DNA from: a virus
Virus record (IMG/VR): IMGVR_UViG_3300004782_000004
Coordinates: 1 to 29,816 of that record
Length of the DNA stretch: 29,816 nt
Direction: 5' to 3' (one strand)
Part shown: positions 6,704 through 11,106 of the stretch, one piece after another
How positions within the stretch are numbered: the stretch's first letter is position 1
How the letters are laid out: every line of letters begins with the position of its first letter
The notes under the pieces: generated by a model
Database searches by the model: none
Seen by the model: the letters and a program-made list of their open reading frames with translations, nothing else
What the model was told of the DNA's origin: nothing
Made by a program: the position numbers and the translations under genes

Positions 6704-8206
6704 GTGGCCGTGATGACGGACCTCGAGTCACTCTCGCCCCGCTGGTGGCTGCGTCGGCTCTACACCAAGCTCGGTGCGGCACGGACGGCGAACGAGATCC
6801 TGCGCAACTACTACCTCGGCAACCACCCTGTCCCCTGGCTCACCGCCGAGGCCCGTGAGGAGTTCCGCCGGATCCTGCTGCTCACCCGCTCGAACTACCT
6901 CGGCCTGGTGGTCGACGCACAGGTCGAGCGTCAGGAGGTCGTCGGGTTCCGGGTCGGCCAGGCCAGTGACGCCGGCGACAAGGACCTGGACGCCGACGAC
7001 GACATGTGGCGGATCTGGCAGGCCAACGGCCTGGACTCCTGGTTCGACGCCGGCCTGCTCGAGTCGGCGGTCACCGGGGCCGCGTTCCTCATGGTCGAGC
7101 CGCCGCAGCGCGGGGAGCAGATCGCCCGACTGCACATCGAGCACCCCGACGAGTTCATCGTCGAGCACACCCCGGGCACGAACCGGCGCGAGGTGGCGGC
7201 CGGGCTGAAGCTGTGGCTGGACGAGTGGACCGGCAAGACGATGGCCACCCTGTACCTGCCCGGCTACGTCTGGAAGTTCGCCTCCTCCAGCACGCTGGGC
7301 TCCACCCTGCCGTCGGACCCGACGTGGATCCCTCGCCTGGGCGGGGGCAGCGAACCGGAGGCCGAGCGCACCGGGATCCCGATCGTGCCGGCGTGGGAGC
7401 TCCCCAACAACCCACTGCTCGGCCTGGGTGGGCGCTCGGAGATCGAGGATCTGATCCCGATCCAGGACCGGATCAACAAGGGCCTGGCCGACCGGCTGAT
7501 CGCCCAGGACTTCGGGGCCTTCCCGCAGAAGTGGGCGACGGGCTGGCCCGAGGTGGACCAGTTCGGCAACCCCACCGACAAGATCAAGATCGGCATGCAC
7601 CGGATCGTGTCGACGGCGGCCATCGACACCAAGTTCGGCCAGTTCACCGCAGCCGACCTCGGCGGGTATATCGAGACCAAGAACGCCGACGTCAAGGACA
7701 TCGCCTCCCGCTCGCGCACCCCCGCCCAGTACCTGCTCGGGGATGTCGCGAACGTGGCCGGCGACACCCTGCGGATGGCCGAGTCGGGTCTGGCCGCCAA
7801 GGTCCGTCAGCGCAACCGGCCACACTCGCTGTCCCTCGAGCAGGCGATGCGCTGGGCGCGGCGACTGTCCGGGATGGGCGAGGTGCCCACCGATGCCACG
7901 GTGGAGACCCTGTGGCGCAACCCCGAGTTCCGCTCCGAGGGCGAGCTCGTCGATGCCCTGGTGAAGATGAGCACGATCGGCGTTCCGCAGGAAGCGCTGT
8001 GGGAGCGCTGGGGCGCCACCCCCAGCGAGGTCAAGAAATGGCGGGTCATGCGCGAGGAGGAGCTGCGCCGGATGCAGGCGATGGATCCGCTGGCCGCGCT
8101 CGCCCCGCGCTACGGCCAGCCGACCGGCACCAGTGCGAACGGGCAGCGGCCGGACGCCTCACGCGCCGGGTCCTCCACCAGGACGTCCGGCGCGGTCGGT
8201 TCGTGA
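6704..8206 (+). CDS. Portal protein, SPP1 gp6-like
   Basis: This 500-aa protein should form the dodecameric ring at the capsid vertex through which DNA enters and leaves. Its N-terminus has NYYLGNHPVPWL and RSNYLGLVVDAQVERQEVVG, a strong match to the SPP1-type portal family, followed by the mixed alpha/beta stem and clip region and a long helix (DRINKGLADRLIAQDF, then SGLAAKVRQRNRPHSL). The C-terminus is Ser/Thr/Gly-rich. GTG 6704 follows GAGAGGGG; ATG 6713 is a possible alternative that would drop three residues. It directly follows the terminase, as expected, but the next gene is reversed, breaking the usual portal to head-protease order. Confidence 0.93.
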   Translation: MAVMTDLESLSPRWWLRRLYTKLGAARTANEILRNYYLGNHPVPWLTAEAREEFRRILLLTRSNYLGLVVDAQVERQEVVGFRVGQASDAGDKDLDADDDMWRIWQANGLDSWFDAGLLESAVTGAAFLMVEPPQRGEQIARLHIEHPDEFIVEHTPGTNRREVAAGLKLWLDEWTGKTMATLYLPGYVWKFASSSTLGSTLPSDPTWIPRLGGGSEPEAERTGIPIVPAWELPNNPLLGLGGRSEIEDLIPIQDRINKGLADRLIAQDFGAFPQKWATGWPEVDQFGNPTDKIKIGMHRIVSTAAIDTKFGQFTAADLGGYIETKNADVKDIASRSRTPAQYLLGDVANVAGDTLRMAESGLAAKVRQRNRPHSLSLEQAMRWARRLSGMGEVPTDATVETLWRNPEFRSEGELVDALVKMSTIGVPQEALWERWGATPSEVKKWRVMREEELRRMQAMDPLAALAPRYGQPTGTSANGQRPDASRAGSSTRTSGAVGS

Positions 8207-8233
8207 TGGGCCGGCACGCCGCGGTCAGGCCCA
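8207..8233. terminator. Possible weak bidirectional terminator
   Basis: TGGGCC (8207-8212) and GGCCCA (8228-8233) form 6-bp arms around a 15-base loop, exactly between the convergent ends of the portal gene and the reversed gene. There is no T-run on either side, so termination is uncertain; the position is the main argument. Confidence 0.3.
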
Positions 8234-8518
8234 CGCCTCCCCCCATGCGCCACGCTTTCCGTCGATCGTGGCGATGGTCCATTCGACCCGGATCTCGACG
8301 ACGTCGGCGTCCTGCCGTTCGCAGGTGACCCACTCCCCGTCGCCCAGACGGGCGAAGGACACCTCGACGCAGGCGTGGTCGACCGGTCTCCAGCCATGCT
8401 GGGCGAGCAGTCGCATCGCCGCGGCATGGCAGTACGTTCCGCGAGCGAGGTCGTCCAGGTTCTCGTGCAGGTCGATCGGCAGCGAGTGCTCGGTGGCGTA
8501 GAAGCGTGACTGGGGCAC
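8225..8518 (-). CDS. Reversed accessory gene in head operon, 97 aa, unknown
   Basis: I do not recognise this protein. It contains SRFYATEHSLPIDLHENLDD, then LARGTYCHAAAMRLLAQHGW (a likely helix), then a beta-rich tail with WVTCERQDADVVEIRVEW. No signal peptide or membrane helix is seen. It is the only minus-strand gene among the structural genes. It begins with GTG 8518 without a Shine-Dalgarno, and TAAGCT ends six bases upstream, so it is probably translated from a leaderless transcript. A separately promoted, oppositely oriented small gene inside a late operon is the classic form of a moron gene expressed independently of lytic growth. Its function cannot be inferred. Confidence 0.72.
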   Translation of the reverse strand: MPQSRFYATEHSLPIDLHENLDDLARGTYCHAAAMRLLAQHGWRPVDHACVEVSFARLGDGEWVTCERQDADVVEIRVEWTIATIDGKRGAWGEAWA

Positions 8519-8524
8519 GGTCGC

Positions 8525-8554
8525 AGCTTAGTTCCGTTGACAACCAGTAGTAAA
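8525..8554 (-). promoter_or_regulatory. Leaderless promoter for the reversed accessory gene
   Basis: Reading leftward: TTTACT (-35, 8554-8549), an 18-base spacer, TAAGCT (-10, 8530-8525), six bases, then GTG 8518. No Shine-Dalgarno is present. Its spacer contains the -35 box of the rightward promoter, so the two promoters interlock and probably exclude each other. Confidence 0.6.
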
Positions 8555-8566
8555 CTCCCCTACCGT
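8537..8566 (+). promoter_or_regulatory. Leaderless promoter for the forward accessory genes
   Basis: TTGACA (8537-8542, consensus -35), an 18-base spacer and TACCGT (-10, 8561-8566) are followed by six bases and ATG 8573. There is no Shine-Dalgarno. The geometry mirrors that of the opposite promoter. The near-palindrome GTTGACAAC (8536-8544) covers the -35 box and could be an operator. The stretch from 8559 to 8570 recurs exactly at 27444-27455. Confidence 0.68.
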
Positions 8567-8572
8567 CGTCCC

Positions 8573-8779
8573 ATGGCGAAGCGGATGACCGAGAAGGACT
8601 GGCTGAGCCTGGCCAGGCTGGCCGGCATCACTCTCGCCGAGGCCAAGCACGACCCCGGGTTCGCCATCCGGCGCGCTCGGCAGAAGCTGGAGTTCCAGGT
8701 CGAGACGGCCAAGGTCGCCCAGGACAAGCTGGCGATGCTGGCCGAGCTGGAGCGCCGCATCGAGCAGACGAGGAGGTGA
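8573..8779 (+). CDS. Small helical protein, 68 aa, unknown
   Basis: The protein is mostly charged helix, with KLEFQVETAKVAQDKLAMLA and ELERRIEQTRR giving a likely coiled coil over residues 35-68. The first part (MTEKDWLSLARLAGITLAEA) resembles a short helix-turn segment. Function is unknown. ATG 8573 is preferred over the longer TTG frame opening at 8537, because that TTG is the -35 box of a well-formed leaderless promoter ending six bases before the ATG. It is the first of four closely packed forward genes in the accessory cassette. Confidence 0.65.
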   Translation: MAKRMTEKDWLSLARLAGITLAEAKHDPGFAIRRARQKLEFQVETAKVAQDKLAMLAELERRIEQTRR

Positions 8780-8783
8780 GCGG

Positions 8784-9050
8784 ATGAGCGTCGCCGAGGA
8801 ACGCTGCGAGATCACCGATCTGGTCAGGTCCTGGTGCAGCCACTGCCGGGAGCAGGCCGCTCCTCCGGCGAGGATCGAGTCGGCCCCGCGCGACATCCTC
8901 GCCCCCGAGCGACCCGGGCACGGCCCGTTCTTCACCGCCTCGTTCCGCTCCCCGTGCGCCGAGTGTCTGGACGACATGCACGAGGGCGACTGGATCTGCG
9001 CGGTCGACGACGTCGGCTGGTGCCACAAGGAATGCTGGGAGGCGATGTGA
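8784..9050 (+). CDS. Cysteine-rich probable zinc-binding protein, 88 aa
   Basis: Two C-x2-C pairs (WCSHC with C18 and C21; PCAEC with C58 and C61) and a C-terminal WCHKECW (C80, H81, C84) give enough ligands for two zinc ions. The fold is probably a treble-clef or zinc-ribbon type, which is inference. The C-terminal part, DWICAVDDVGWCHKECW, looks like a short beta ribbon followed by a ligand knuckle. A role in binding DNA or protein is possible but not shown. The start is firm: AGGAGG lies seven bases before ATG 8784. The stop overlaps the next start by one base (TGATG). Confidence 0.75.
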   Translation: MSVAEERCEITDLVRSWCSHCREQAAPPARIESAPRDILAPERPGHGPFFTASFRSPCAECLDDMHEGDWICAVDDVGWCHKECWEAM

Positions 9051-9274
9051 TGACCGGGGTCGGAGATCAGTTCGAGCCGCTGTTGACCATCGGCGACCTC
9101 GCGCGAATCTGTTCGGTCGAGGTGAGCACGGTGAGGCGCTGGCGATTCGATGGGACCGCCCCCCGCGGCATCATCGTCGGCCGTCATCTCAGGTTCCGCC
9201 CCGAGGACGTCCGCGAGTGGCTCGACTCGCGCCAGACGAAGGGCTCCACCCGCGGGCAGCGCGAGACCCGATGA
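9050..9274 (+). CDS. Winged helix-turn-helix DNA-binding protein, MerR/excisionase-like
   Basis: The 74-aa protein is essentially one DNA-binding domain. LTIGDLARICSVEVSTVRRW (residues 12-31) gives the helix-turn-helix, and VGRHLRFRPEDVREWLDSR (43-61) gives the wing and following helix. This is the HTH_17/excisionase-type pattern (AlpA, Xis). Such proteins bend DNA during prophage excision or act as small transcription regulators. Here it lies between structural genes, with no integrase in the window, so a local regulator of the two adjacent divergent promoters is at least as likely as an excisionase. It overlaps the previous gene by one base and the next by four. Confidence 0.85.
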   Translation: MTGVGDQFEPLLTIGDLARICSVEVSTVRRWRFDGTAPRGIIVGRHLRFRPEDVREWLDSRQTKGSTRGQRETR

Positions 9275-9573
9275 AGCTCCTGGGCGTCGCCGATACGGTC
9301 GCCGCGCTGGCCCTGCCCGTCGCTGCGGGGCCGCTCGGCTGGGTGATGGTCTCTCCGCAGATGCTCTCCGCCCTGGCGCCGCTCGTGGTCGCCTTCTGGA
9401 TCGTCGGGGACTTCCTGCTGTACCGGCGCGCCGAACCCGGGCACGTCTCGGTGCACAACTGGATCCACAGCTGGCCGCACGACAAGCCGCCATCATCTGA
9501 GCGTGAGCGTCCAACCGTCCACGAGGTCGAGCCCGGCAACGTCATCCCTCTCCGCCGCGCAGACGAGGGCTGA
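9271..9573 (+). CDS. Small membrane protein, 100 aa
   Basis: Two hydrophobic segments are clear: residues about 5-26 (GVADTVAALALPVAAGPLGW) and about 30-50 (LSALAPLVVAFWIVGDFLLY). They are followed by a soluble tail containing HNWIHSWPHDKP and a basic end. It is likely an inner-membrane protein with both spans near the N-terminus. No function is recognised; superinfection exclusion is a possible role for such a cassette protein but is speculation. Its ATG overlaps the regulator stop (ATGA). It overlaps the next gene by 71 bases, an unusually long overlap. Confidence 0.65.
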   Translation: MKLLGVADTVAALALPVAAGPLGWVMVSPQMLSALAPLVVAFWIVGDFLLYRRAEPGHVSVHNWIHSWPHDKPPSSERERPTVHEVEPGNVIPLRRADEG

Positions 9574-10462
9574 GCTCGAGCAGGAGCGTCGCCTCGTCGT
9601 CCAGATGGCGGCGGCCGGTGCAGTCATAGGTGCCTGGCAGCAGATCGACCCCCGGTCGATCCTGAGCGACTGGCTCGGCGGGCTGGGCGCTCGGATCTTC
9701 GCCGCGCTGTCGCTGGCGCAGGAGGCGATCGCCGCGATGGCGCCGAGCTTCGTCGAGGACATCCTGGCGCTGATGGACGAGCCGGTGCTCACTCCCGCGC
9801 TGGATCCGCTCGCGTTCGCCGGCCGCTCCTTCGAGGGGGTCGACCTCGAGTCGGTGCTGCGCCTGGCCCCGGTCCGCGCCGAGGCCCTGGTGCGCTCGGG
9901 CATGGCCGATCGGGTCGAGGCGCTCGCGCGCGCTCAGCGGTTCCTCGAGATGGTCGTGATGACCGAGACCGCCGACGCCGGCCGCGCGGCCGACCAGGCC
10001 GTGCTGATCGGATCGGAACCGACCGAACCGGGACAGAAGTTCACCTACGGCTGGATCCGGGTGATCGAGCAGGGCGCCTGCTCGCGGTGCGCGATCCTGG
10101 CCGGCCGGTTCTACAAGTGGAACCGCGGCTTCGAGCGGCACCCGAACTGCCGGTGCCTGCACATCCCGGCGACGGTGGCCGCGGTCGGCACGATGGCCAC
10201 CGATCCCCGCGCCTACTTCGACTCCTTGTCCCCGGCCGAGCGCACCGCGCTGTTCGGCAAGGCGGTCAGCGAGGCGATCGAGGCCGGCGCAGACATCAAC
10301 CGGGTGGTGAATGCGGCCACCAGGGGCAAGGTCTCGATCGCCGGCGACGGCACTCGGACCAAGGGCGGCAAGCCCACTCCATGGCAGTTGATCAAGGATG
10401 CTGCAGGTGACCGTGCCGAAGCGGCGAGGCTGCTCGCGCAGTTCGGCTACATTCGCGCCTGA
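9503..10462 (+). CDS. MuF-like minor head protein (annotated as capsid maturation protease in related phages)
   Basis: This 319-aa protein is the usual partner of the portal, joining the head interior. The N-terminal 150 residues are helical (LEQERRLVVQ, AWQQIDPRSILSDWLGGLGA). The centre has the MuF/VG15 signature: GACSRCAILAGRFYKW, then ERHPNCRCLH (C193, C196, H213, C216, C218), a probable metal or structural Cys cluster. The C-terminus holds a small domain with KGGKPTPWQLIKDAAGDRAE. A protease active site is not evident, so the protease label is family habit. GTG 9503 is the only in-frame start before the conserved helix, despite its 71-base overlap and weak Shine-Dalgarno. Confidence 0.82.
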   Translation: MSVQPSTRSSPATSSLSAAQTRAELEQERRLVVQMAAAGAVIGAWQQIDPRSILSDWLGGLGARIFAALSLAQEAIAAMAPSFVEDILALMDEPVLTPALDPLAFAGRSFEGVDLESVLRLAPVRAEALVRSGMADRVEALARAQRFLEMVVMTETADAGRAADQAVLIGSEPTEPGQKFTYGWIRVIEQGACSRCAILAGRFYKWNRGFERHPNCRCLHIPATVAAVGTMATDPRAYFDSLSPAERTALFGKAVSEAIEAGADINRVVNAATRGKVSIAGDGTRTKGGKPTPWQLIKDAAGDRAEAARLLAQFGYIRA

Positions 10463-10524
10463 GCGACCATGGGCCGGAACGGTCCGCGGCGATCCCCGCA
10501 ACGGGAAAGGGCCACACCTAGATC

Positions 10525-11106
10525 ATGCGCATTCGTCTGCATCGCTACCGCTACTCCTCCGAGGGCACCGTCGTCGGCGCAACGCTGGGCGGCTCCACCG
10601 GAACCTTGACCGGCGACCCCGCAACGGGACCGCAGGACGATGGCCAGGGGAACGAGAGCCAGCAGCAGCAGCCGGACCCGACGAAGCTCCAGGCGGAGCT
10701 CGAGCGGTGGAAGCGGCAGGCACGGGACAACGAGACCCGGGCCAAGGCGAACGCGGATGCGGCGAGGAAGCTCGCCGAGATCGAGGACTCCACCAAGTCG
10801 GACACCGAGCGGCTGACTGCGAAGTCGGCCAAGCTCGAGGCCGACCTGGGTTCGGCGAACGCCGAGGTCGCGCGCCTCACGGCGGCGATCAAGCACGGCC
10901 TGGGCTTCGAGGACCTGGTTCTCCTGCCGAGGGGCCTGAGCGTCGAGGAGACCGAGAGCGCGGCGAAGTTGCTTTCCGAGCGGATCCAGGGCAGTGGCCG
11001 GCAGCAAGATCCCCCGTCCTTCGACGGCGGAACTCGCGGCACCCCCGCTGCCGGCGGATCGTTCGACTCCACGGTGCGGGACGCTCTGAGGAACCGCCGT
11101 CGCTGA
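10525..11106 (+). CDS. Scaffolding protein (probable)
   Basis: The 193-aa protein is strongly charged and helical, with a coiled coil over residues about 50-130 (KLQAELERWKRQARDNETRA, then DTERLTAKSAKLEADLGS) and a basic tail, DALRNRRR. This composition and its place directly before the major capsid gene are the hallmarks of phage scaffolding proteins, which guide capsid assembly and then leave. The N-terminus has a low-complexity linker (DDGQGNESQQQQPDP). ATG 10525 is used. The Shine-Dalgarno is poor: a purine run, GGGAAAGGG, sits somewhat far upstream. Confidence 0.82.
   Translation: MRIRLHRYRYSSEGTVVGATLGGSTGTLTGDPATGPQDDGQGNESQQQQPDPTKLQAELERWKRQARDNETRAKANADAARKLAEIEDSTKSDTERLTAKSAKLEADLGSANAEVARLTAAIKHGLGFEDLVLLPRGLSVEETESAAKLLSERIQGSGRQQDPPSFDGGTRGTPAAGGSFDSTVRDALRNRRR

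Follow-up and report, generated by a model that had tools for sequence, protein, structure and literature searches.

Portal and MuF-type head protein genes normally lie side by side, and the locus studied here raises the question of what the DNA that separates them represents. The window analysed, the 29,816-nt IMG/VR phage contig IMGVR_UViG_3300004782_000004, carries a reversed gene (8225-8518) followed by four closely spaced forward genes (8573-9573) between portal and MuF genes that were identified with PHROGs and Pfam profiles and lie 1.3 kb apart; scaffold and major capsid genes come after MuF. A preliminary description had taken the five genes, among them one for a DNA-binding protein, for a single self-regulated moron-type module with its own promoter pair and a convergent hairpin at its left edge. 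The interval was compared with L010 (IMGVR_UViG_3300049491_000970, 48.9 kb), the nearest well-covered relative, and with L013 (IMGVR_UViG_3300049917_000275, 4.2 kb), whose contig ends ~105 nt into the region referred to below as the slot, so that the comparison of reversed gene, promoters and slot covers three distinct lineages. The features of the window are as follows.

6704-8206, plus strand: portal protein gene, left flank (phrog_104, E 2.7e-107; Pfam SPP1_portal, 2.9e-23)
8225-8518, minus strand: rev97, reversed gene of 97 aa with a GTG start, read as backbone, at the same place in L010 and L013
8525-8554, minus strand: predicted leftward promoter, -35 TTTACT (8554-8549), 18 nt, -10 TAAGCT (8530-8525), 6 nt before the GTG
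8537-8566, plus strand: predicted rightward promoter, -35 TTGACA (8537-8542), 18 nt with the conserved GTAAAC, -10 TACCGT (8561-8566), 6 nt before the ATG
8573-9486, plus strand: variable slot, limits approximate, from sequence comparison with L010 and L013
8573-8779, plus strand: slot gene 1, encoding a charged and probably helical protein of 68 aa
8784-9050, plus strand: slot gene 2 (cys88), 88 aa, eight Cys
9050-9274, plus strand: slot gene 3, 74 aa, HTH_17/MerR-like DNA-binding protein of the BldC/excisionase type, by profile and structure matches
9271-9573, plus strand: slot gene 4 (TM), 100 aa, two hydrophobic segments by hydropathy
9503-10462, plus strand: MuF-type head protein gene (head maturation protein), right flank (phrog_1522, E 1e-47)

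The split of portal and MuF by a reversed gene and four small forward genes was confirmed, both in the window and in two further contigs of 99.99-100% identity to it, and because these show the identical arrangement an assembly error is unlikely. Slot genes 2 to 4 are joined by TGATG/ATGA overlaps, the TM gene overlaps MuF by 71 nt, and the GTG start of MuF in the window aligns with the MSVQ start of the L010 MuF. In codon-position G+C, all five interval ORFs follow the pattern seen across the genome (GC3 0.86-0.96). Among viral portal relatives with a detectable MuF, the two genes lay no more than 60 bp apart in 62 of 72 and more than 150 bp apart in nine; the corresponding numbers for loci in bacterial genomes were 41 of 46 and four. 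The normal adjacency that had been assumed is thereby borne out, and the interruption is unusual to a moderate degree. Several of the larger gaps contain one or two unrelated small forward ORFs, so that insertions recur at this interval across the wider family. Differing small forward ORFs between portal and MuF were observed in other portal relatives, at L031:5969-6189, L023:5629-5895, L025:5680-5853, L070:4574-4783, L079:2807-3070 and L004:3611-3778. A small reversed ORF (69 aa, GC3 0.90) lies between portal and MuF in the Labedaea rhizosphaerae genome (L148:5378-5587, minus strand), and a profile search found no relationship between it and rev97.

The three lineages share a backbone of differing divergence, the portal and MuF of the window being 82% and 71% identical to those of L010 and the portals of L010 and L013 95% identical to each other. 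The slot, set in this backbone, holds four genes in the window, a different Cys-rich gene in L013, beginning MADTDDGWAWEKNEEHWCGCCGVQ, and none in L010. In L010 its place is taken by a short unrelated stretch, and the rightward promoter reads straight into MuF, the first ATG after it (MPDQHPCRHHEGMSVQ...), 9 nt from the -10, being in frame with MuF. The left border of the slot falls at or beside the rightward start codon; at the right border, homology between the window and L010 resumes at GCCGCCATCAT (~9486 in the window, ~4950 in L010) and continues without gaps to the MuF start. The borders show no direct repeat of 7 nt or longer that is exact, and a search of the remainder of the L010 record found neither cys88 nor the HTH_17 gene. 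As a separate observation, the terminase large subunit gene of this relative (L010:208-3006) contains a long intein-like insertion in frame, running approximately from ALDTPVPTPTGWSTVGDL to GRHATLTHN, which the TerL of the window lacks.

This comparison supports the reading of the four forward genes as an accessory block that L010 lacks, and the accessory insertion that had been proposed is upheld, at a site that elsewhere holds other small genes or nothing. The block that is present or absent in portal-MuF intervals consists of the four forward genes; the five-gene cassette is not present or absent as a unit, and we rejected it as such, since both L010 and L013 retain rev97 and the promoters. 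Because L010 keeps rev97 and both promoters without the block, these belong to the backbone and not to a cassette. Gain of the block in the window and loss in L010 would both be compatible with the three lineages. Slot turnover is fast, and faster than that of the backbone, as the slots of L010 and L013 differ despite their nearly identical portals.

Between rev97 and the slot, the window, L010 and L013 have in common the sequence GTTGACA-N7-GTAAAC-N5-TACNGT. Read rightward, it gives TTGACA, 18 nt, TACCGT or TACTGT, and 6-9 nt to an ATG; read leftward, it gives TTTACT or TTTACC, 18 nt, TAAGCT, TAGAGT or TAAAGT, and 6-8 nt to the rev97 start codon. These two arrangements of -35, -10 and start codon are the sole such matches in each record (29.8, 48.9 and 4.2 kb), and shuffled sequences yielded 0-0.03 matches, a statistic that is descriptive since the pattern was defined after the sites had been seen. 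The promoter core is identical in 8 and 7 of 10 columns, while nearly all blocks beyond it show 0-2 of 10, conservation dropping within 10-20 nt outside the promoter block. Among 2.9 million viral contigs, the pattern occurred in this clade and in one unrelated contig only. This single outside match, at L173:4522-4552, was dismissed as chance; it falls where a coding gene ends, and the contig has 53% G+C and no head-gene homology. A generic E. coli-type scanner flagged no promoter at the locus, the -10 TACCGT being weak by the E. coli consensus, and because of this silence and the post hoc definition of the pattern the argument rests on conservation. Phylogenetic footprinting indicates that the promoter pair is real.

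The layout is that of actinobacterial leaderless SigA-like promoters (a TANNNT -10 about 6-9 nt before the start codon and a -35 at 17-18 nt), and it is found in both directions in all three lineages. Since the -10 boxes stand only 6-9 nt from the start codons, leaderless mRNAs are predicted both ways, and the first genes of both directions are probably read from them. Leaderless mRNA is a common habit in actinobacteria. In Mycobacterium avium, such mRNAs account for a third of mapped genes, according to the part of the report cited here (PMC3774663). The spacers of the two face-to-face promoters overlap, which would make simultaneous use of both unlikely. Imperfect dyads lie between -35 and -10 in L010 (GTAAACTAGTCTAC, L010:4906-4919) and L013 (GTAAACGCGCTTAC, L013:4102-4115), and the dyad centre of the window counterpart, at 8550-8563, is not symmetrical. 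From these few sequences, the dyads are a possible candidate operator.

The reversed gene itself was found at the same place in L010 and L013 with equal length and no indels, at 53% and 55% amino acid identity, respectively. Between L010 and L013 its dN/dS is 0.32, indicating purifying selection. Between the window and L010, rev97 evolves faster than its neighbours, with a dN/dS of 0.61 that is about twice that of either portal (0.26) or MuF (0.31). The AlphaFold model (pLDDT 77) has a beta-alpha-beta-beta-beta fold without an HTH; it gave no significant PDB match and is weakly similar to small phage proteins that are themselves uncharacterised (best E 1.7e-3). By tblastn no relatives of rev97 were found in 50,697 phage records, its relatives in IMG/VR are limited to this clade, and 396 Actinomycetota genomes gave chance-level matches only.

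Apart from the HTH protein, the slot proteins are near-orphans, as expected of accessory genes. Slot gene 1 matches phrog_33642 weakly (E 0.002) and no Pfam family, its best tblastn match in the 50,697 phage records has an E of 0.04, and its viral relatives in IMG/VR are the same phage only. Residues 44-85 of cys88, in its C-terminal half, match two phage families of unknown function (phrog_1581, E 2.5e-5; phrog_28043, E 0.004). For both cys88 and TM, tblastn found nothing in those phage records, IMG/VR yielded the same phage only, and the Actinomycetota genomes gave chance-level matches; the structure model of cys88 (pLDDT 43) was unusable. The hydrophobic segments of TM cover residues ~1-28 and ~31-52, and its charged C-terminus is encoded in the out-of-frame overlap with MuF. 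Slot gene 3 matches Pfam HTH_17 (E 8e-11, 42.4 bits against a cut-off of 27) and phrog_66 (E 1.7e-10), its nearest PHROGs being excisionase and regulator families. Its closest PDB structures, over the DNA-binding domain, are 6ama (E 6e-4) and 6amk (E 3e-3), which we take, from the aligned sequence, to be Streptomyces BldC. The protein is thus like BldC and excisionase-type HTH_17 proteins over that domain, but scores far below the cut-off of the NCBIfam BldC subfamily (25.6 bits against 77). BldC itself binds direct repeats as cooperative multimers, as stated in the part of PMC5859096 drawn on here. Among PADLOC models, the HTH domain of slot gene 3 resembles mad1 (E 1e-7) and a methyltransferase model (E 0.01) through the shared domain only, and the other four interval proteins gave no match. 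For none of the slot proteins was a match to a known family of anti-defence or exclusion proteins obtained; such roles, or one in host control, are possible for these genes.

The actinobacterial phages of this group are probably lytic. L010 carries replication genes of lytic type; it encodes Prim-Pol, a Dda-like helicase, exonuclease, endonuclease VII and a C5 methylase. A search of its 48.9 kb revealed no tyrosine integrase, serine integrases and repressors not having been sought exhaustively. Given these replication genes and the lack of a tyrosine integrase, a role in lysogen conversion is less likely than one in the lytic cycle.

Taking these observations together, we consider it probable, with moderate confidence, that the interval is an accessory-gene slot in the head operon behind a SigA-like promoter, most likely used for host-interaction delivery. 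Its fixed part is the leftward rev97 with the two predicted SigA-like promoters that face each other; as their spacers overlap, RNA polymerase would probably use one at a time. Its changeable part starts at the rightward start codon and, in the window, comprises four co-translated small genes ending in the MuF overlap. With a newcomer placed behind the standing promoter, the host polymerase would express it and the late-operon programme need not be awaited. The most likely use would be to deliver host-interaction proteins that change fast, whether for anti-defence, exclusion or host control, and read-through would add transcription of MuF and later head genes. It is also possible, though we hold it as no more than a tentative proposal, that the locus is an 'expression dock', a fixed bidirectional leaderless promoter with rev97 at which whole accessory genes would be swapped at the exact rightward start codon, rev97 perhaps acting on the promoter or the cargo. 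That the rightward promoter serves mainly to boost MuF together with the head genes behind it, while the slot genes ride along, seems unlikely to us but deserves weight: L010 with its empty slot keeps the promoter fully and its first ATG is in frame with MuF, yet a leftward gene of equal conservation accompanies the promoter, which is atypical of a late promoter, and in most wider relatives the portal-MuF gap is too short to accommodate one like it.

A classical moron, that is a self-contained five-gene cassette expressed in lysogeny from its own promoters and closed by its own terminator, we regard as improbable. The block does sit at a normally adjacent gene pair, is absent from L010, and has beside it a reversed gene inside a late operon and divergent promoters. 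The promoter pair attributed to the cassette exists and is conserved but is backbone, being kept in L010 together with rev97 without the block, and the proposed left-edge hairpin fell away, as no terminator-like site was found in 7900-10600, the hairpin has no T-run and neither relative conserves its fold. The block moreover runs into MuF, its base composition (G+C 68-70%, GC3 0.87-0.96) is that of its neighbours, and the lack of a tyrosine integrase in L010 also counts against the cassette. Less probable again is a small genetic switch in which rev97 and the HTH protein would cross-regulate from the shared promoter region; the overlapping spacers of the divergent promoters, the imperfect dyads of L010 and L013 and the BldC/MerR-like protein encoded in the window would fit it, but L010 keeps the promoter without an HTH_17 gene in its record, the window has the HTH gene without a symmetrical dyad centre, and the rev97 model has neither an HTH nor a confident structural match. 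With the promoter so retained in L010, the self-regulation that had been suggested is not supported for the HTH protein. Ordinary virion-assembly genes lost by L010 would be co-directional with MuF and overlapping, as the block is, and a deletion in L010 is compatible with the data; this is nevertheless very improbable, as neither an HTH protein nor a membrane protein is of assembly type, L013 carries a different gene there and most wider relatives carry none.

If the reading of an accessory slot behind a standing promoter is correct, the reversed gene with paired leaderless promoters after the portal gene would be a simple sequence handle with which to collect rapidly changing accessory proteins from actinobacterial phages that have not been cultured, and one backbone with its slot full, replaced or empty would offer a natural comparison. 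It would also be a caution that a promoter adjoining an accessory cassette need not be the cassette's own. The locus resembles phage morons, a term of Juhala et al. 2000 (as cited in the part of PMC7067206 used here), in that accessory genes separate two late genes which are usually neighbours and an independent promoter lies nearby, but differs in that the promoter lies outside the variable DNA, there is no terminator and no composition shift, and the relative looks lytic. In the extended start-associated sequences (ESAS) of Cluster K mycobacteriophages, SigA-like hexamers spaced by 17-18 bp lie close to start codons and are accompanied by an imperfect inverted repeat, and Adephagia gene 90 has a separate predicted leaderless transcript (PMC11373665). 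The putative promoters described here are alike by layout in their SigA-like hexamers near start codons and imperfect inverted repeat, but unlike ESAS they are single-copy in each record, bidirectional and placed in the head operon. In Microbacterium phages of Clusters EC, ED, EF and EJ, the canonical head operon is broken up by additional or leftward genes, and in Cluster EC a repeated motif lies upstream of one such gene; those insertions involve other positions and genes, and the part of that account cited here describes no conserved divergent promoter with a changeable slot (PMC7302621). The present locus thus belongs to a known kind, accessory genes inserted in a structural operon, of which its architecture is an unusually clear case.
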